This document shows positions 3,432 to 31,629 of a DNA stretch of 64,000 bases, in pieces (the first letter of the stretch is position 1; each line of letters starts with the position of its first letter). The position numbers and the translations under genes were made by a program. Below the pieces are notes generated by a model. It was given only the letters and a program-made list of their open reading frames with translations. It ran no database searches and was not told the origin of the DNA. The DNA is from Pseudorasbora parva (taxonomy: Eukaryota; Chordata; Actinopteri; Cypriniformes; Gobionidae), in assembly GCF_024679245.1 (NCBI RefSeq), contig NC_090178.1:5674202-5738201 (forward strand). Direction: 5' to 3'.

Positions 3432-4930
3432 ATGACAATTTTTGATGTAAAAATCATACTGTTAGGAAACATAAAACTTGCTTTTGTTGATAAGTGTATC
3501 ATAGCTGATGCGTATTTCTGTCTTGACAACTCTCTCTGAGATATTGGCAGGGTAATGGATATGGAAATGCTAATGCATTTGGTCTTGGCGGAATAGATCT
3601 GCTACGGCTGAAGAGCAAGTACTGAGATTTGCTACTGCTAATAGATACACAGACATTCCTGTGAGCATGCAAGTTTCATGATAGAACTTGGTATGCAATT
3701 TAAAACATCTTCAAAATCGAATATGATAACTTTTTAGCAAATCAGATTTTATTTTGCTGCGTAATCGCTCATATTGTTCATGCTCTGATGTATTATGCAC
3801 TGCAAATGCAAATATGTTTCTCTCCATGATCTTAATTGTTAACAGACAGAGAGCATGTTGCAGGCTATATCTTATTAGAATGAATCTTATTTTTACTTCC
3901 AGCACATCCCAACTGATCTCTGGCCAGTTGCACAGCCCACTGATAATAACATTACGGATCCCGGCAGTCGGACACCAACTGCAACCAACACAACAGCGAT
4001 CCGACGAGCTCCGGCGAGAGACGCTGTATGTGTAAAAACGCCCCATCAATCTAATCAAGCTCCTTGGATGGAGAAAGTCCACTCCTATAATTGGTCCTCT
4101 TTGATGATCAGGGAGGGCTAATTACAGCTAATCACGGGCATCTTTAATCACAGCCTAGTTTGTGCAACTCTTTATTACTCATTTAAGCATGTTTTGTTGG
4201 GGAGAGTTGGTGTGACCACATGCTAAGTGATGACAGGAACAGCAGAGCTAACACATCCGTCAACGTTTGCCAACACCTGCTTGACATTTTCAAATGAATC
4301 AAGATGTACTTAACTATCTCCAGCCAACACATTAATAAAAATAGCGAGTGAAACTATGCATTTTTCTACAATAAATGTTTCAGACAGGCAGGATCTCATC
4401 CTTTGCATGTGAGTGACAGCTGCATGTAAAATGACACCTCATTTATATCATTCAAAGGTTAGATTTGTTAATGTTTTTGAAGCCTTTTATGCTTGCTAAG
4501 TGTGCGTTTATTTGATATAGAGAAAAATAAATTGTGAAATATTACTAAAATTTAAATTGCTTTTTTTATATGTTATTAATTTGATCATTACTCCAGTCTT
4601 CACTGTCACATAATCATTCAGAAATCATACTAATAATCTGATTTGAAGCTCAAAAAAATTCTGATTATCTGTTTTGAAAACAGCATTTATTTGAATTAGA
4701 AATCTTTTGTATTATAAAATATTAAAATATAATAAACATTATGAAATCACTATACAGTCACTTTAGATCAATGGAATGTGTCCATACTGAATAAAAGTAT
4801 CCATTGCTGAAATAAACCTATACTAACCCCAAACTTTTGAACGATACAAAGTAAACGATACATACATACATTAGACGTATTACTGTCAAAGTAATTATAT
4901 ACTGAAAAAAAACAATTGTATATATATATA
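3432..4930. other. Unique intronic sequence
   Basis: AT-rich intron. Short opposing open frames at 3711-4082 have no recognisable similarity and overlap each other on both strands, which argues against coding. A (TA)n run lies at 4917-4934. Confidence 0.4.
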
Positions 4931-9873: not shown

Positions 9874-11511
9874 CAGTCTTGTTCAAAATAATAGCAGTAC
9901 AATGTGACTAACCAGAATAATCAAGGTTTTTAGTATATTTTTTATTGCTACGTGGCAAACAAGTTACCAGTAGGTTCAGTAGATTGTCAGAAAACAAATG
10001 AGACCCAGCATTCATGATATGCACGCTCTTAAGGCTGTGCAATTGGGCAATTAGTTGAAAGGGGTGTGTTCAAAAAAATAGCAGTGTCTACCTTTGACTG
10101 TACAAACTCAAAACTATTTTGTACAAACATTTTTTTTTTCTGGGATTTAGCAATCCTGTGAATCACTAAACTAATATTTAGTTGTATGACCACAGTTTTT
10201 TAAAACTGCTTGACATCTGTGTGGCATGGAGTCAACCAACTTGTGGCACCTCTCAGCTGTTATTCCACTCCATGATTCTTTAACAACATTCCACAATTCA
10301 TTCACATTTCTTGGTTTTGCTTCAGAAACAGCATTTTTGATATCACCCCACAAGTTCTCAATTGGATTAAGGTCTGGAGATTGGGCTGGCCACTCCATAA
10401 CATTAATTTTGTTGGTTTGGAACCAAGACTTTGCCCGTTAACTAGTGTGTTTTGGGTCATTGTCTTGTTGAAACAACCGTTTCAAGGGCATGTCCTCTTC
10501 AGCATAGGGCAACATGACCTCTTCAAGTATTTTAACATATGCAAACTGATCCATGATCCCTGGTATGTGATAAATAGGCCCAACACCATAGTAGGAGAAA
10601 CATGCCCATATCATGATGCTTGCACCTCCATGCTTCACTGTCTTCACTGTGTACTGTGGCTTGAATTCAGAGTTTGGGGGTCGTCTCACAAACTGCCTGT
10701 GGCCCTTGGACCCAAAAAGAACAATTTTACTCTCATCAGTCCACAAAATGTTCCTCCATTTCTCTTTAGGCCAGTTGATGTGTTCTTTGGCAAATTGTAA
10801 CCTCTTCTGCACATGCCTTTTTTTTAACAGAGGGACTTTGCGGGGGATTCTTGAAAATAGATTAGCTTCACACAGACGTCTTCTAACTGTCACAGTACTT
10901 ACAGGTAACTCCAGACTGTCTTTGATCATCCTGGAGGTGATCATTGGCTGAGCCTTTGCCATTCTGGTTATTCTTCTATCCATTTTGATGGTTGTCTTCC
11001 GTTTTCTTCCACGTCTCTCTGGTTTTGCTCTCCATTTTAAGGCATTGGAGATCATTTTAGCTGAACAGCCTATCATTTTTTGCACCTCTTTATAGGTTTT
11101 CCCCTCTCTAATCAACTTTTTAACTTTTTTAATCAAAGTACGCTGTTCTTCTGAACAATGTCTTGAACGACCCATTTTCCTCAGCTTTCAAATGCATGTT
11201 CAACAAGTGTTGGCTTCATCCTTAAATAGGGGCCACCTGATTCATACCTGTTTCTTCACAAAATTGATGACCTCAGTGATTGAATGCCACACTGCTATTT
11301 TTTTGAACACACCCCTTTCAACTAATTCAACTAATTGCCCAATTGCACAGCCTTAAGAGCGTGCATATCATGAATGCTGGGTCTCATTTGTTTTCTGAGA
11401 ATCTACTGAACCTACTGGTAACTTGTTTGCCACGTAGCAATAAAAAATATACTAAAAACCTTGATTATTCTGGTTAGTCACATTGTACTGCTATTATTTT
11501 GAACAAGACTG
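9874..11511 (-). mobile_element. Tc1/mariner-superfamily transposon, copy 1 (1,638 bp, IR/DR type)
   Basis: Long terminal inverted repeats of roughly 210 bp begin CAGTCTTGTTCAAAATAATA and end with the complement, followed by TA at 11512-11513. Each inverted repeat contains an outer 'gttcaaaataatagcagt' and an inner 'gttcaaaaaaatagcagt' motif, the two-site IR/DR arrangement of fish Tc1 elements. The left TA appears mutated (the flank reads TAA). The transposase gene lies at 10171-11175 on the minus strand. Confidence 0.95.
10171..11175 (-). pseudogene. Tc1-like DD34E transposase with one in-frame nonsense codon
   Basis: The frame begins [17 protein letters not shown]. Features in order are: a helix-turn-helix around [20 protein letters not shown] (residues ~28-47), a basic GRKRKTT hook, a second helix-turn-helix around [10 protein letters not shown], and the catalytic core. 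The core has the first Asp in [19 protein letters not shown], the second Asp in FQQDNDPKH and Glu in DLNPIENLW, 34 residues after the second Asp. A TAA stop at 10438-10440 interrupts the frame right after PKHTS; reading resumes in the same frame to a terminus at KNCGHTTKY. Full length would be 334 codons, normal for Tc1 transposases. The second copy has Lys at the stop position. Confidence 0.95.
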
Positions 11512-15026: not shown

Positions 15027-15947
15027 ATAATTTACAATAAGGTCCCATTAGTAAATTGAGTTAAAATGTCATCGACTATGACATTAAGAAGCTCGGGCTT
15101 GTTGTGAAGAGGCACTAGCTTGGCAACCATGACATTAAGAAGCTCAGGCTTGGCGGCCTTGTCATGAAGAAGCTCGGGTTTGGCGGCCATATTGTGAAAA
15201 GGCTCTGGCTTGGCGGCCATGTCATGAAGAAGCTCTGGCTTGGCGGCCATGTGACCATGTCATGAAGAGGCTCTCGCTTGGCGGCCATGTCATGAAGAAG
15301 CTCTGGCTTGGCGGCCATATTGTGAAGAGGCGCTGGCTTGGCGGCCATGTCATGAAGAAGCTCTGGCTTGACGGCCATGTGACCATGTCATGAAGAGGCT
15401 CTGACTTGGCGACCATGACATTAAGAAGCTCAGGCTTAGGGACCATGAACTTAAGAAGCTTGGGCTGGGCGGCCATGTCATGAAGAAGCTCGGGCTTGGC
15501 GGCCATGTCATGAAGAAGCTAGGCTTGGCGGCCATGTTATGAAGAAGCTTGGCCTTGGCGGCCATGTCATGAAGAACCTCAAAACACATGACAAAGGAGC
15601 ACATGGCAGGATCGCATGACTAGAAAAAGGGAATCAGGTGGACACAGGAACCATGACAGTGAACATAACAAAATAAGAACATGAACCAAAACCAAAACTA
15701 TACATTACACATCTTTGTTTGGATTGTGATTTAAAGGTGTGGTTGTCCGTTTAAATTACTAGAGATATTTTATGTTTTGAGGCCATTTTGGCTAAATAAA
15801 CAACAATTAAATTAGCTAAAACGGAGAAAAAAATCGGAAAACATTTAGAAAATCTGACAATTTGGTTGTAAAAAAAAATGGCATTCAGAATCGGCCATGT
15901 AAAATAATGAATCGGTGCCTTGTGGAACCTTATTGTAAAGTGTTTTT
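15027..15947. mobile_element. CACTTTACAATAAGG-family element carrying a minisatellite
   Basis: The left end 'atttacaataaggtcccatt' and the right end 'ggaaccttattgtaaagtgt' are inverted copies of the MITE termini seen at 12495. The interior holds the 30-bp minisatellite at 15078-15580 and unrelated sequence, so the two ends may flank later insertions. Confidence 0.55.
15078..15580. repeat. 30-bp minisatellite, about 16 units
   Basis: The unit is approximately 'gaagaagctctggcttggcg' plus 'gccatgtcat'. A few units carry a short extra 'gtgaccatgtcat' segment. Because 30 is divisible by three, open frames survive; the minus strand reads as a ten-residue MAAKPELLHD-like repeat. There is no start context, splice context or similarity to suggest that it is translated. 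Confidence 0.92.
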
Positions 15948-21795: not shown

Positions 21796-22820
21796 TAAAG
21801 GTGGGATAAGTGTAATTTCAAAACCGTTTTAGAAAAAGGACTCAGGCCAAGAGGAATAACAAACTTGTAGCCAATCAGCAGTAAGGGGCGTATCTACTAT
21901 TGATGGTGAGAAGAGCTCTCGCTCTCGCTCTGTGCACGTCATTATTCAACACACACGAGTCACACATGACGGACATTAGCCGAGAACTAGTCTAATATAT
22001 GCTGCTTGACTATGCTCATGTGTCATGTTCGCTTGTTAGTCCATTTGCGAACGTATTGTGTCTCACTTCAGCGATGATAATGGCTCGTTCATTTCCACAC
22101 CGTATGGAGCATCTAAATCTCCTCACTGTGTGCTTCAAGCATCAGCTCACACAATGTCTCCGACAAGTAAGATACTATACTCCTAATATATGTTTGCTTA
22201 CTCTTTTCATGATCTATATAACCCTTATCCAGTCATAATTGTAATATGTCGTTAGTTGGACTGTCGGCTCGTGCTATAGAGTTGTTCATGAGAACAGTTT
22301 GTGATTTTGTGATCGCTATGACTCTAATCTTGTCATAATTGTAATGTGTCGTTAGCTGGACTGTGTGCTTGTGTACTATCGAGTTGTTCACAAGAACGGT
22401 TTGTGTGTGTCTTTGTGATTGCTGTAACTCTAATCTTGTCTTAATTGTAATATGTCGTTAGCTGGACTGTGTGCTCATGTACTATTGAGTTGTTCATGAG
22501 AACAGTTTGATTGCTGTAACTCTAATCTTGTCATAATTGTAATATGTCGTTAGCTGGACTGTCGGCTCGTGTACTATCGAGTTGTTCACAAGAACGGTTT
22601 GTGTTTTTGTGATAGAAGGGATGACTTTTTCATTGAATATTCGACCTGGATTAGATACAGAGATTCTGCCATAGCCGTTGATGCCTCTGCTCTGGGTTTA
22701 CGTATGTGTGGGGCGGCGCTATCAAAATAGGGGCGAGACCCTTTTGGGGGTAGGGGCGTGTTTGTTTTGGTGATTTGAAATATCAACAACGGTTACCAGA
22801 TAGCACTTACTCCACCTTTA
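21796..22820. mobile_element. Putative non-autonomous DNA transposon with TTAAAGGTGG ends
   Basis: The left end 'ttaaaggtgggataagtg' and the right end 'cacttactccacctttac' are inverted copies (TAAAGGTGG, then a GTAAGTG-like block). A truncated 'aaaggggtcatgaactg' element abuts on the left. The interior holds a four-unit tandem repeat. Confidence 0.6.
22220..22614. repeat. Tandem repeat, four units of roughly 90-115 bp
   Basis: Each unit has 'cataattgtaatatgtcgtt', 'gctggactgt', 'gagttgttcatgagaac' or 'gagttgttcacaagaac', and 'gattgctgtaactctaatc'. Units differ in length because the 'tttgtgtgtg' spacer varies. Confidence 0.9.
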
Positions 22821-22893
22821 CTCCACCGTTTTTTACATTAAAAAAAAATCCAAATTTAGAAATTATTTTAGCCATCTCATTTGAACGCTCTGT

Positions 22894-23155
22894 CTGCTGT
22901 GAAACTTCAGTGTAAACGCCCACTGCTGTGATTGGCTGCTGTGAGACTCCAGTGTAAACGCCCACTGCTGTGATTGGCTACTGTGAGACGTGAGTGTAAA
23001 CGCCCACTGCCGTCATTGGCTGCTGTGAGACTCCAGTGTAAACGGCCACTGCCGTGATTGGCTGCTGTGAGACTTCAGTGTAAACGCCCACTGCCGTGAT
23101 TGGCTACTGTGAGACGTGAGTGTAAATGCCCACTGCCGTCATTGGCTGCTGTGAG
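22894..23155. repeat. 42-bp minisatellite, about six units with ATTGG in each
   Basis: The unit runs 'ctgctgtgagactccagtgt' plus 'aaacgcccactgctgtgatt' plus 'gg'. Variants (actcc, gtgag, cttc) recur in a regular order, giving a hint of a three-unit higher-order repeat. Each unit contains ATTGG, an inverted CCAAT box; any regulatory role is speculation. Confidence 0.92.
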
Positions 23156-25166: not shown

Positions 25167-26620
25167 TTCGAACAGATTGTTTTCAATGAGTGTACGCTCA
25201 CCGGCGGCAGAATTCGGCGCCTGTCCGCGATGACTTGTTGAAGTTGTTTAAAATCCTGCCGCGCCACAGAGCGCCATTTTAAGGTTTTAAATAAAATGTA
25301 TATTATATTTCCCTCAAATGTGATTTCACCCTGTGCTACAAGATACACTCATCATGCAGCTCTTCTGTCAGAAGTCGATTCAAAATTGAGCTTGCGTGTA
25401 TATAATGTGCGTGTCCGGTGTGAGAGACCTGAGACGTGGTGCTGAGCTTCGGGTCCGGTGTACGAACGCCTTTAGGCACAAACGGCTTAAGAACGTGCAT
25501 GTAAACACACTCAAAGTGTTCTTTTCCTCTCTAGGCAGGTGTTTTTTTTAGGTTCATCTATCAAAATGTTCATATACAGTCTTGTTCAAAATAATAGCAG
25601 TACAATGTGACTAACCAGAATAATCAAGGTTTTTAGTATATTTTTTTTTGCTACGTGGCAAACAAGTTACCAGTAGGTTCAGTAGATTCTCAGAAAACAA
25701 ATGAGACCCAGCATTCATGATATGCACGCTCTTAAGGCTGTGCAATTGGGAAATTAGTTGAATTAGTTGAAAGGGGTGTGTTCAAAAAAATAGCAGTGTG
25801 GCATTCAATCACTGAGGTCATCAATTTTGTGAAGAAACAGGTGTGAATCAGGTGGCCCCTATTTAAGGATGAAGCCAACACTTGTTGAACATGCATTTGA
25901 AAGCTGAGGAAAATGGGTCGTTCAAGACATTGTTCAGAAGAACAGCGTACTTTGATTAAAAAGTTGATTAGAGAGGGGAAAACCTATAAAGAGGTGCAAA
26001 AAATGATAGGCTGTTCAGCTAAAATGATCTCCAATGCCTTAAAAAGGAGAGCAAAACCAGAGAGACGTGGAAGAAAACAGAAGACAACCATCAAAATGGA
26101 TAGAAGAATAACCAGAATGGCAAAGGCTCAGCCAATGATCACCTCCAGGACAGTCTGGAGTTACCTGTAAGTACTGTGACAGTTAGAAGACGTCTGTGTG
26201 AAGCTAATCTATTTTCAAGAATCCCCCGCAAAGTCCCTCTGTTAAAAAAAAGGCATGTGCAGAAGAGGTTACAATTTGCCAAAGAACACATCAACTAGCC
26301 TAAAGAGAAATGGAGGAACATTTTGTGGACTGATGAGAGTAAAATTGTTCTTTTTGGGTCCAAGGGCCACAGGCAGTTTGTGAGACGACCCCCAAACTCT
26401 GAATTCAAGCCACAGTACACAGTGAAGACAGTGAAGCATGGAGGTGCAAGCATCATGATATGGGCATGTTTCTCCTACTATGGTGTTGGACCTATTTATC
26501 GCATACCAGGGATCATGGATCAGTTTGCATATGTTAAAATAATTGAAGAGGTCATGTTGCCCTATGCTGAAGAGGACATGCCCTTGAAACGGTTGTTTCA
26601 ACACGACAATGACCCAAAAC

Positions 26621-26847
26621 GTCCCCGGTTACGAATGTAACCTTGGTTCCCTGAGAACAGGGAACGAGACGCTGCGTCAGCTGACGCTATGGGGAACGCC
26701 TCCAGCGTGACCGGTGTCTGAGCTACTATCAAACCACAGCAATCCTATTGACCGGCGACAGCCTATGATGTCATCAAGGTGCGACCAGGAAGTATATAAG
26801 GGCGCCTTGCAAACATGACACCAGCTTCTTCGTCTGAAGGGACTGTT
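26621..26847 (-). repeat. DIRS-like inverted terminal repeat, 3' end of the element
   Basis: The outer 50 bp (26621-26670) is specific to this end. It contains a 'ggttac...gtaacc' hairpin and a 'ttccctgagaacagggaa' imperfect palindrome. Then 155 bp is identical in inverse to the other end, and about 22 bp more is similar. It includes 'tatataag' at about 26793. Confidence 0.9.
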
Positions 26848-26876
26848 CGCAGGCAGGCCCCGAGGCATGGCAAAAG

Positions 26877-26987
26877 TGACGCAGCGTCTCGTTCCCTGTT
26901 CTCAGGGAACCAAGGTTACATTCGTAACCGGGGACGTTCCCTTTCGAAAGGGAACTCGAGCTGCGTCAGCTGACGCTATGGGGAACG
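26877..26987 (-). repeat. DIRS internal complementary region
   Basis: 26877-26935 is the reverse complement of the window-left terminus (26621-26679), apart from one end base. 26936-26987 is the reverse complement of the window-right terminus (31578-31629). The two halves meet at GGGGAC|GTTCCC, which is the junction a circularised element would have. In DIRS elements this region is thought to template circle completion during replication. Confidence 0.88.
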
Positions 26988-29900
26988 ATATACCCACGCC
27001 GCCATGCCGAGGGGAGTGCATGCCTACTGGCAGTGACAACTGTCAGGACAAGCAAATTCAACTGAAATGCCTGAACCACTCCCCCTCTGGTCACATTAGG
27101 CTGTCAGTGACAGCATTCCCTACGGTCATAGCCCAAGCTGTGGCCTTGGGGCACCTTCATGTACCCTACCCCGGCCGCTCAAAGGCCTGGAACCAACCTG
27201 TTCGACAGAAGGGGTTCCTTTAAGGGAATGTGGCTAGGGGACCCGAGGGCGCCCCAGCCAGTCACTATTCGGGAAGAACTTCACCGAATGCCACCAGGGA
27301 GGCTTGACCTGGCGTTACTATGCGGGACGCTTCCGTCTGCCAGCCCAGTCTGTTAACAACAGAGCCTCTGGAAACTCGCCTCTGGAGAGGCATCAAGCTG
27401 AGGGACTGCGAACTGGCAGTGTCCGCCTCAGGCCGGAACTCAGAGACGGGCTATCCTGGAGAACAGCGCTCAGCGTAGTGCTTTCCCACCCTTGCTAGCG
27501 AGGGGAGTCAGCTGCTCGATCCTAGGATCTACCGAGCACATACATTACAGGGGTGCTCAGGAGGCCTGAGAAGGCCTACAGGCTGATCTCACAGGGAGGC
27601 CCCGAGGGGCCTACGACCAACTGACCAGGCCCAGGCGGCCGTAAGCTCACAGACAACCCTCATAAGAGGGGAGCTCTTAAGCCTGCCTGGTAGGTACCAT
27701 GCTGTAGGCAACCTATGCAGGTCCCTGTCCTGTAGGGACCGCATAGCAGCAGTGTAAACTCGTCGTGCTAGAGTATGCACCCGCCATCAGGTGCCGAAGC
27801 CTGATGGCAGGAACCACTAGCTGTCAGCTTGAGCCAGTTATGTGTCTCCGTCCAAGGAACTCATTCCCCCTGGGAGGCCCCGCAGGGCCTACTACTTGCC
27901 AGGCTACTCGTAGCCGGCACTGAGACCAGGGAACGACCTCAGGGAGGCCTGGTGAGGCCTGCTACCTGATAGCAGATCATGCTAGCCGCCCTGGCTAGCA
28001 ACCATGCTCACTGTCATAGGAACCGGGAACCGGGGCTCATCCTCCGGGAGGCCTAGCGAGGCCTAATCCCTGTCACCCAGTGGCCGAGGCCCTGGACCAC
28101 CCCCTCAGGGGAAGCCAGATGAGGCCTGCTGCAACCCAGCAGGCCCTCCGGGAGGCCTGGTGAGGCCTGCTACCTGCCATCTGGTGACTGGAGCCCAGGA
28201 ACTGTTATCCAGTGCTAGTTCCCTGGAGTACCCCCTCAGGGGAAGCCAGATGAGGCCTGCTGCATCCCAGCAGGCCCTCAGGGAGGCCCTGCGAGGCCTA
28301 CTACCTATCATCCAGTGACTGAAGCCCAGGAACGACCCCTTGGGGGAAGCCAGACGAGGCTTACTGCTACCACAGCAGGCCCTCAGGGAGGCCTGGTGAG
28401 GCCTACTACCTGCCGTCTAACACCTGAAGCACGGTAATACCCCCTCAAGGGAAGCCCGGCAAGGCCTGCTGCACCCCAGCAGGCCCTCAGGGAGGCCTAG
28501 GGAGGCCTACTAACTGGGCTTGTAGCCATGCCAGCGACGAATGCTCGCTGGCAGGTCGGATGAATGCTGGCCGCTCCAAGTCGGGCTGACAGTGGCTGTC
28601 TGCTTGGCTGACGAAGACCTAGACATCCAGTTACCACCTGGGGGAATCACCCCAGGGAGGCCATGATGGTCCTGCTTGTCGACGAGGTACTGCTGAAGCC
28701 GACATCGTCGGGGATATTCCTCCCAGGCGCACATTGGCCCGATGTCGCGACTCACCCGCAAGGAGGCCTGCTGAGGCCTCCTGCTCAGAGTCCACTGCCA
28801 GGACTGCCCAAGCTGGCTGCTCACAGCCAGCTGGTAGCCCATGCCCCTCCCGGGGCTGGCTTCATCCCGGAGGCTCACGGGGTCCTGCATGCGATGACGC
28901 AGTCCCATCCGGCAGTGCCTACAGACATAGCCTAAACACATTGCCAAAAGCAGTGTACTCAGCAGAAAGTACCTAGACCCTCAAAGCGAGGGGAGTACAA
29001 CTTACGTCACCTGCGTCAGGGCGGCCGCTCTTCCTTCATGCAGCGGCCTACCGTTCACGCTAGGGCGTCAGCCATTGCAATGCTTCGGCTTCCAGGGGAG
29101 CATCCGACCGAACCATTACGAAGCACGCAGGTTGCGAGTGCAGCTCAACCCGAGCCCTAAAAGGTGGAGCAGAAGACACAGAGCAGAGGGCAAAAAATAT
29201 TTACAAATATGCTACCCACCGGCCCAACATCCTCCAGGATGGGGCCAGGGGCCGCCAGAAGGTGGCAGCCACAACAAGCTCTGGAAAGCGGGGTTTTCGC
29301 AAAACTAGCCCACCTGGGTACAAGCGTGGGACGCCAAACCCCGCCCCACGACCACTGGCTAAGTCGCTGTTCATTCTGCTTCACACCAACCTGCATTACT
29401 AAAAAACCCCAAAACGCAGAGAAGGGGGCGGGCCTTGGCCGGACGACTCTAATGTAAGAGGAGGCTGACTAGGGATGCGAAAGAAAATGCCCTGCAATAT
29501 TCAAACCGAGGGCCTCGGGCGATAATTACTTTCCTTCTTTGGAAAGAAATGCTCCCCATCCCGCAAAAGCCTAGGCCAACCGATGCAGTGGCCCGGAGAG
29601 GGCCAGCCTACATAAGAGTATTATACGTGGCTCGGGGGAGCGAAAAAACCTCAATAATACTCCGTCCAAGCCCTGCGAGGCTAGACATAAATCTGTAGTT
29701 CGTGCGTAAGCCTAAACTCACCCTCCCGTCTATGAATTTCCACGAGGGGCAACGTTGACCGCTTTACCCTGGGGTGGCTAAGAGCTTCCTGTTTGACTAG
29801 GAGAGCACACTCGCCTAAAACAACAGCACATTCCTACAAGAATGAGCGGTTGCCTCAAAACTGCTTCATCACACAGAGAGAAGGCAAAAAAAAAAACTGT

Positions 29901-31450
29901 TCGCACAGCTGTACATACAATGGCGGCTATTCTCTCCTAGCAAAGCTAGCTCTAGACATACCACATAACGGCATCTAAAAAATCGTTCTAGCCACCGGAC
30001 AGGGGAACTACAGGGCCCTATGGTGTCCTCCATCGATACCGTGATCCCCAAACCCTTGGCGGGGAGCATGAAGTCTCACACAACATAAATAATAAATGTT
30101 TCCCTCACAAGGGGGACTTACCAGCTCGCCTCCTGCGCGACGATATCCACACATAAGTTTTACTCACAGTATGCATGTTTAGGAGCGCAACCGCCTGAGG
30201 GTGCGCTTCTCACAGCCCAGCCAGGCGGGGTCTAGAGTATCATCGTCACGGCCCCCCTCAGGGCCGGATGTAAGAAGCGCCTGGGGAAAAAATGAAGAAG
30301 AGCAGTAAATGAGATGTAATTCTTAACTCACCCACCTAAGGGAGGGATATTTCATTCACGCCAACAGCGTTGTGATACTATTCCTCTTATGTGGGAGTCC
30401 GCCTCTTTGCGCCCCGCCCTTAACCGCGGGGAGCATGAGAGGCGATGTTGGCACTCAGGCCCCGTCACTGGTCCGTATACCGTGACGCCTCCCGCCTGCC
30501 TGGGACCCGGATCTCAGCGGTGTGCGGGTCCTCGGACACCACCACCCGCGCTTCTGTGACACTGGCCCTCAGGCCCTGCTATCGCTGATATGGCGCACAG
30601 CTGCGCCGCGGGTCAGGGTATTTTCCCTGATTGAGATCCCTCAGCAGGTCTTCCCAGTACACTTGCAACACCGACACGGCGTAAAAGTAGCACCAGGCTG
30701 ACCCGCTGCCGTGTATGCCCCGCCATCTAAACCCCCTGAAACATAGTTGAAAGAAGCTCAGATGGCAGGGTTGGAGCTAGAACACATACCCATATCCACC
30801 CATCCTCCAAACATCAGCATTTAACACCCGCTGATGTCCGTGAATACACTGAATATGGGTTCTTCCATACCCTCACGATCTCAGTCAGGAGATCAGGAAG
30901 GAATGGAAAAGCTCAACTGAGCCGACGGTTTTATGGCCGGGGAGAAATCGATCGTTCCGTTTAAACGAGCGATCTCTCCTTTAATGCGCCCACATGACGG
31001 CCGCAGCCTGCATGCAGCGCGCTCATAACAGCCATCGGCTCAGCATACACAGTCAGGATGGCTGAGAAATTAATTTCCCTTCTCACCAGCCATCCCTACG
31101 AGCATTCGTGATTAGTCTCGTCAGTCGCTAGATCGCCGGAGGGAAACATCCCCTCGCGGCGATCGGCGACCCCATCCGAGGGACTGTGACGTGCATCCGC
31201 GCTCAGCCTCAGCGTGAGCGGGGATCACATCACTAATCTCAGATGCAAAAACGCTCTTCCCTCAGGAAGAGCGCTAGACGAGAACGGAGCGATTTCGGAT
31301 TGAAAACTTCGCTCACATTACACACAATCGAACAAATGACTCCACAAGAGCTTGACTGTGCATGCTCTTAATACCAGGCAGAAAATAAATGAATCTGGAT
31401 TACCTTTGACTTGAAGCATTCAGACAAAAACAGTCCCTGAAGACGAAGAT
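26988..31450 (-). other. Interior of the DIRS-like element
   Basis: GC-rich compared with the surrounding intron. The longest open frame (28510-28947, minus strand, 145 codons) begins with a CRHC-containing stretch but shows no domain I can name. No reverse transcriptase YxDD context and no tyrosine recombinase motif are visible on either strand. The stretch may be a decayed coding region or a replacement by tandem repeats. Confidence 0.5.
27550..28510. repeat. GC-rich tandem array inside the DIRS-like element, ~105-bp units
   Basis: Units are clearest from 28087. Each has 'ctcaggggaagccagatgag', 'gcctgctgca', 'cccagcaggccctcagggag' and 'gcctactacctg'. Half-units built on 'ggaggcctggtgaggcct' extend upstream to about 27550. 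The open frames crossing the array on both strands are composition artefacts. Confidence 0.85.
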
Positions 31451-31629
31451 GCTGGTGTCATGTTTGCAAGGCGCCCTTATATACTTCCTGGTCGCACCTT
31501 GATGACATCATAGGCTGTCGCCGGTCAATAGGATTGCTGTGGTTTGATAGTAGCTCAGACACCGGTCACGCTGGAGGCGTTCCCCATAGCGTCAGCTGAC
31601 GCAGCTCGAGTTCCCTTTCGAAAGGGAAC
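31451..31629 (-). repeat. DIRS-like inverted terminal repeat, 5' end of the element
   Basis: The outermost 20 bp, gttccctttcgaaagggaac, is a perfect palindrome. Inside it lies the 155-bp block shared with the other end. Confidence 0.9.
31479..31487 (-). promoter_or_regulatory. TATA box in the DIRS 5' terminal repeat
   Basis: On the minus strand the text is 'agtatataagggcg', followed about 30 bp later by 'catgacaccagc', a typical distance to a transcription start. The copy in the opposite repeat faces the other way. Function is inferred. Confidence 0.5.

Follow-up and report, generated by a model that had tools for sequence, protein, structure and literature searches.

A coding-free, probably non-autonomous family of DIRS1-like retrotransposons in Pseudorasbora parva

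A stretch of 64,000 nucleotides (nt) from the genome of Pseudorasbora parva (NC_090178.1, positions 5,674,202 to 5,738,201; hereafter the window) contains an insertion of 5 kb that displays the ends of a DIRS retrotransposon, while an earlier note, made from the sequence alone, had found no coding genes inside. This locus raises the question of whether the insertion is the ruin of a single coding element or belongs to a family that multiplies with borrowed enzymes. Here, we describe a recent family with a large coding-free interior, as revealed by its architecture, its dispersal, its youth and matched changes in its ends. Very probably, the element is a non-autonomous DIRS1-like retrotransposon with many dispersed and near-identical copies, the enzymes of which would be provided in trans by coding DIRS elements.

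Ends, internal complementary region and insertion site

The insertion is bordered by two inverted arms of 177 nt with a complementarity of 98%, which continue into outer ends that are unlike each other (Table 1). Such inverted terminal repeats (ITRs) with unlike outer ends are characteristic of DIRS1-like elements. Moreover, the window-left end (26618-26679) is the reverse complement of positions 26877-26938 (62 nt, 100%), the window-right end (31578-31629) is the reverse complement of positions 26936-26987 (52 nt, 100%), and the two internal copies share a GTT at 26936-26938. Thus, the element comprises an internal complementary region (ICR), in which both ends are fused over a 3-nt circular junction. 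An ICR of this kind, located near the 3′-end, is part of the definition of DIRS1-like elements in passages of PMC3266345. As the ICR lies near the window-left end, the sense strand by DIRS convention is the minus strand, and the terms left and right in Table 1 follow this orientation.

The element splits a Tc1 transposase gene, whose frame contains a Tc3-type transposase domain according to Pfam. A second Tc1 copy in the window (98-99%) is not interrupted at this position. When aligned to this empty site, the flanks of the element overlap by exactly 3 nt, namely AAC, and the element therefore sits between two AACs. The flanks have only this junction trinucleotide in common and no longer target duplication was found, again as expected for a DIRS1-like element. 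These results confirm the inverted termini, the internal region equal to both fused termini and AAC/GTT as the sole shared junction, all of which the earlier note had recognised. However, its terminal block of 155 base pairs gives way to arms of 177 nt plus unlike outer ends, and of its span (26621-31629) only the right limit stands, whereas the left limit reaches 26618 when both AACs are counted.

Table 1. Coordinates of the element, its parts and its empty insertion site in the window
Feature	Position	Strand	Basis or remark
Whole element including both AAC trinucleotides	26618..31629	-	repeat structure, empty site, siblings
Right (3′) terminus beyond the conserved arm	26618..26670	-	extent by subtraction of the 177-nt arm; reverse copy in the ICR
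Right ITR, conserved part	26671..26847	-	98% complementary to 31429-31605
ICR, reverse complement of both termini fused	26877..26987	-	GTT overlap
GC-rich tandem array, periods ~105 and ~131	28090..28516	.	siblings L015 and L026 longer here
Gag remnant, block 2	30609..30707	-	collinear with block 1, different frame; tblastn and profile
Gag remnant, block 1	30829..30912	-	tblastn and profile
Left ITR, conserved part	31429..31605	-	repeat comparison
Putative TATA-like motif in the left ITR	31477..31483	-	by eye only; mirror copy at 26793-26799 (+)
Left (5′) terminus beyond the conserved arm; plus-strand end is AAC	31606..31629	-	repeat comparison, siblings
Uninterrupted Tc1 copy, empty insertion site	10278..10668	-	flank alignment

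Coding content of the interior and the gag remnant

The longest stop-to-stop frame of the element comprises 156 amino acids (aa), and the longest frame in 200 mononucleotide shuffles of the interior has a median length of 162 aa, so that no frame of the element exceeds the shuffle expectation and the interior indeed contains only short frames, as had been noted before. Reverse transcriptase (RT) and tyrosine recombinase (YR) were sought with profiles built from 120 RT-set and 120 YR-set proteins. Neither was found in the element, the best E-values being 0.86 for RT and 0.39 for YR, in contrast to 1e-216 and 6.4e-127 in the distant coding DIRS family L031, which served as the positive control. 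The element hence lacks the RT-RNase H and YR coding sequences of DIRS1-like elements, and the translated search proposed in the earlier note as a possible refutation returned no such similarity. All 10 matches of RT-set proteins to the element fall in the region of a gag remnant; likewise, two of three YR-set matches are located there, one in sense and one in antisense, and the third lies mostly in an ITR.

The first similarity to gag was weak (28.9 and 26.9 bits), with the best of 200 dinucleotide shuffles reaching 26.6 bits for the same protein, and shuffles up to 32.3 bits with another query. The similarity was convincing only once more proteins were used: tblastn with 99 gag-type fish proteins at an E-value of 0.01 yielded 93 matches from 79 proteins. 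Of these matches, 78 begin in a single 100-nt bin in sense orientation, 4 and 10 in the next two bins and 1 elsewhere. The query proteins are identified as Gag by their position before RT. In addition, a gag profile gave modest scores in two sense frames collinear with gag (E-values of 9.5e-5 at 10.5 bits and 0.024 at 2.6 bits, computed for six frames), as compared to 4e-45 in the control L031. The earlier claim that RT, YR and gag frames are all missing thus holds for RT and YR, but not fully for gag, of which a broken remnant survives within 30609-30912. This remnant suggests that the element stems from a coding DIRS which lost its RT/YR region. No source was recognised for the ~3.6 kb that separate the gag remnant from the ICR.

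Dispersed copies and the changes they carry

When the genome (1.23 Gb) was searched with 321 nt of the window-left end as query, 1648 loose candidates were obtained, 40 of which are scored places at 99-100%. Besides the window, we read the best 20 of these, a selection by similarity of the ends and not a random sample. Among these siblings, 16 are full length (4959-5143 nt) and comprise both ends together with the same coding-free interior, the composition expected of a non-autonomous family with many independent copies. Two of them, L015 and L026, have an additional length of 130-131 nt, and their alignments contain one more segment of the tandem array. Internal deletions are present in L029 (4.3 kb) and L030 (2.4 kb), and L017 ends at element position 4579 without a right end. 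Of the 20 siblings, 19 have the left AAC, which is replaced by ATC in L021. A right end was found in 18 siblings, and it carries AAC in all but L018 and L022, which have AAA. The flanks of the siblings are unlike each other, and no longer duplication was seen.

In the remaining sibling, L016 (C8:12772214-12781414), an internal segment of 2.5 kb (element positions 1056 to ~3576) is present in three head-to-tail copies, which extend beyond the stretch read. Template switching, unequal exchange and an assembly error, which are not distinguished here, could each account for this arrangement.

Leaving out L016, L017, L029 and L030, we compared the 16 full-length siblings and the window copy. Their mean pairwise difference is 0.0082 (0.0014-0.0136), with 232 singleton as opposed to 44 shared variants. 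The mean distance to the commonest base is 0.0045, corresponding to 0.9-2.2 million years at an assumed rate of 2-5e-9 substitutions per site and year.

These copies bear directly on the possibility that the element is merely what decay has left of a full-length coding DIRS, with no independent life. Although the gag remnant would fit such a history, no trace of RT or YR is detectable, and the same broken state recurs at other places in 16 full-length siblings that differ by 0.8% on average. The decay is therefore older than the amplification, which refutes this explanation for the copy in the window and leaves it hardly credible in general. Correspondingly, the proposal of the earlier note to look for the same coding-free interior with intact ends at many sites had a positive outcome in 16 of the 20 siblings read, and its alternative of a single decayed full-length copy has to be dropped.

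The siblings likewise allowed us to weigh whether the element still encodes a small protein or a functional RNA that is maintained by selection. The young copies hardly differ in their interior, and the frame 26819-27220, which is partly made up of ITR and ICR, deviates most from expectation with 7 replacements versus 14.5 expected. However, youth alone accounts for this conservation, and replacement, silent and stop changes are near the neutral expectation in the other six of the seven frames tested (out of nine frames of at least 98 aa). The 156-aa frame shows 13 replacement, 4 silent and 1 stop changes as compared to 17.3, 7.4 and 1.5 expected. CpG positions, which make up 10.5% of the sites, take 88 of the 275 change events. 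Frame retention in the siblings (longest frame of 134-177 aa per copy) was discarded as evidence, because the copies are too young. Moreover, the 10 frames scanned out of 31 listed frames of at least 60 aa gave no match in Pfam, and no Rfam match at gathering score was obtained in the element. With no clear constraint in the seven frames, we consider a selected product highly improbable.

The paired ends provide a record of how the copies were made. At 177 paired ITR positions in the 17 copies, 11 position-by-copy cells are changed. The copies L023, L026, L027 and L028 each show one change that is present in both arms as exact complements, whereas only 0.017 such matched changes are expected by random placement, and none of 20000 permutations reached four. 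Both ends therefore appear to be copied together at transposition. One end/ICR pair changed jointly as well, with G/G in the window copy and L011 and A/A in the other 15 copies.

To the side of the element, the window contains a further tandem array at 15105-15580 with a period of ~30, the unit of which includes CTTGGCGGCCATGTCA, and two adjoining arrays at 22232-23155 with periods of ~92-106 and 42.

Coding DIRS elements, mobilisation and known systems

The same genome harbours coding DIRS elements. A search with PF00589 yielded 149 places, and of 13677 loose candidates in a YR search, 119 are scored places, which fall into two main groups (94-100% and 62-64%). The protein P0145, which carries an RT and is listed under Siphateles boraxobius, matched 46 RT places at 74-83%, 38 of which are stop-free in the match. 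The named fish sources among the database relatives are cypriniform; one entry is filed under Micromonospora and probably represents contamination. As an example of a whole coding DIRS, L055 (1548-7374) comprises 159-nt ITRs at 99% and frames of 553 aa (gag by position), 833 aa (RT) and 1098 aa (containing YR).

The circle junction and its surroundings can be aligned between the element and four coding families (L055; the L056 group; L061/L069; the neighbour of L027 with the L070/L071 group). These families have the GTT/AAC junction in common with the element, but carry RT or YR coding sequence. Their end cores are 79-86% identical to those of the element, with cores of 52-64 nt being 83-86% identical in the 12 loci read from the L055 and L056 groups, and the ends of L061 give two alignments of 123 nt (77%) and 49 nt (80%). 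The closest ends were found in a DIRS with RT and YR coding sequence at L027:5881-9201, located ~0.5 kb from a coding-free copy, with 70% over 406 nt of ICR and right ITR (E-value of 2e-32); those of L070 and L071 align at 70% over 405 nt and 68% over 409 nt, respectively. L031/L032 is another whole coding DIRS, whose ends, including the circle junction, agree with the element at the motif level only. Its integrase domain scored 25.7 bits, below the Pfam cut-off of 27.1, and a solved-structure search with L031/L032 remained without match. Apart from the ends and the gag blocks, there was no significant alignment of the interior with L031, L055 or L069.

Twenty of the 149 YR neighbourhoods were considered as helpers. 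Among them, L044 and L051 are members of the L031 family, and L045 is part of a family whose ends are related. The remaining 17 matched the ends of the element only over short stretches, at the level of chance. Likewise, a search for copies outside this genome with a 20-base end motif returned no viral contig and two bacterial contigs, each with only a 21-nt match attributable to chance.

Two further YR gene families are represented by L033 (a frame of 709 aa with SAM-like and integrase domains) and L034 (a frame of 241 aa). They have no inverted ends in the stretches read, and are perhaps Crypton- or Ngaro-like. Their presence is one reason to ask whether the unit was moved as DNA by a Crypton-like or other YR system, the more so as insertion at AAC without a longer duplication fits any YR. 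However, Cryptons carry a YR gene without RT and have no ITR/ICR system, so that a region of fused ends has no role in them. In the element, ITRs and ICR are present and no YR was found. Moreover, the ICR of fused ends and the joint changes of the ITRs are expected under the DIRS replication model, and the ends match those of coding DIRS elements, while the stretches of L033 and L034 lack inverted ends. Movement by such a system is thus very improbable.

Taken together, the architecture of the ends, the lack of RT and YR and the 16 of 20 siblings with the same interior support the reading of the earlier note as a non-autonomous DIRS element. Several observations nevertheless weigh against this interpretation. 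First, 7 of the 11 changed ITR cells are on one arm only, and 7 end/ICR positions vary on one side only as compared to one that varies jointly. Later mutation explains these one-sided changes; the matched ones could also arise by gene conversion between the arms. Second, the ends were read at 20, 13 and 2 places out of the 149, 119 and 46 listed for YR or RT, respectively, and no coding element with identical ends was among them. Third, the 20 siblings are not representative of the larger set of related ends. At up to 3 mismatches, a 32-nt junction probe hit 643 sites and a 32-nt probe beside the ICR 652 sites, whereas a mid-interior probe hit only 143, three of them in L016; reversed-pattern control probes gave no site, and each of the 17 full-length copies is matched by the probes with no more than 1 mismatch. 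Among the 100 listed junction sites without mismatch (C1-C6), 15 are accompanied, in the correct orientation and within 6 kb, by a listed mid-interior site with no more than 1 mismatch, and 85 have no listed one over this distance. Most junction-bearing elements thus hold another or a shortened interior, and L030 is an example of a deletion form; those without the mid-interior sequence may include the helper. The notion of one family with a coding-free interior consequently holds for the best-matching siblings, but not uniformly across the genome.

For the non-autonomous element, we infer both mobilisation in trans and the identity of the helper. The element would be transcribed from its promoter-like ITR, reverse transcribed and circularised through the ICR, and a tyrosine recombinase would finally insert it at AAC/GTT. 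RT, YR and probably also Gag would come from coding DIRS elements of the same genome. Replication of DIRS elements via the ICR is itself still mostly a model. Most likely, the lineage originated when a coding DIRS exchanged its RT/YR region for unrelated sequence, an event that would have preceded the burst of copies. A bolder idea, which we regard as possible but rather doubtful, is that a coding-free DIRS lineage parasitises coding DIRS elements across family borders, their YR and RT accepting foreign cargo within a short end module. Parasitism of this kind is suggested because no coding family examined has end cores more than ~86% similar to those of the lineage, which nevertheless multiplied recently, and foreign cargo because the junction is common to ~640 elements whose interiors appear to be of several kinds.

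In a young coding-free family whose ends are intact, the signals acting in cis are separated from the enzymes, which shows which sequence is sufficient for transposition, and the matched ITR changes provide natural evidence for a joint rewriting of both ends. A two-part transposition assay for DIRS elements could employ the element as donor. Such families would escape surveys of DIRS elements that are based on RT or YR domains.

The term non-autonomous DIRS was absent from the literature searched, which did not cover Repbase; as this database may contain such entries, we do not claim that the element is absent from print. Likewise, no such element is described in the passages at hand from PMC3266345, PMC8498967, PMC9210276, PMC5753468, PMC3783388, PMC4157794, PMC5633606, PMC9341512, PMC5718144, PMC8969392 and PMC7599744.

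Among known systems, the design is close to that of the DIRS1-like elements GaDIRS1, GaDIRS2 and TnDIRS1a of ray-finned fish, as portrayed in PMC3266345. They have the same AAC circular junction and, comparable to the element, start with GTT and end with GTT (GAT in TnDIRS1a). Their conserved ITRs measure 144-148 nt versus 177 nt in the element, the right side outside the conserved ITR (divergent ITR and extension) 46-48 versus 53 nt, and the parts of their ICRs 36-46 and 56-57 versus 52 and 62 nt (PMC3266345). DIRS1-like elements have gag, RT-RH-MT and YR regions, whereas the element retains a gag remnant only. In this respect it resembles SIRE, described in PMC6681497 as a truncated non-autonomous version of the YR retrotransposon VIPER: in both cases a YR retrotransposon is reduced to its ends, with mobilisation presumed to occur in trans. 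SIRE, however, is a kinetoplastid element of ~0.4 kb (185 + ~30 + 220 base pairs), in contrast to the 5 kb, the ITR/ICR design and the large interior seen here. The long coding-free interior between functional ends is in turn reminiscent of LARDs, large non-autonomous derivatives of long terminal repeat (LTR) elements, whose LTRs are direct repeats and which depend on a DDE integrase.

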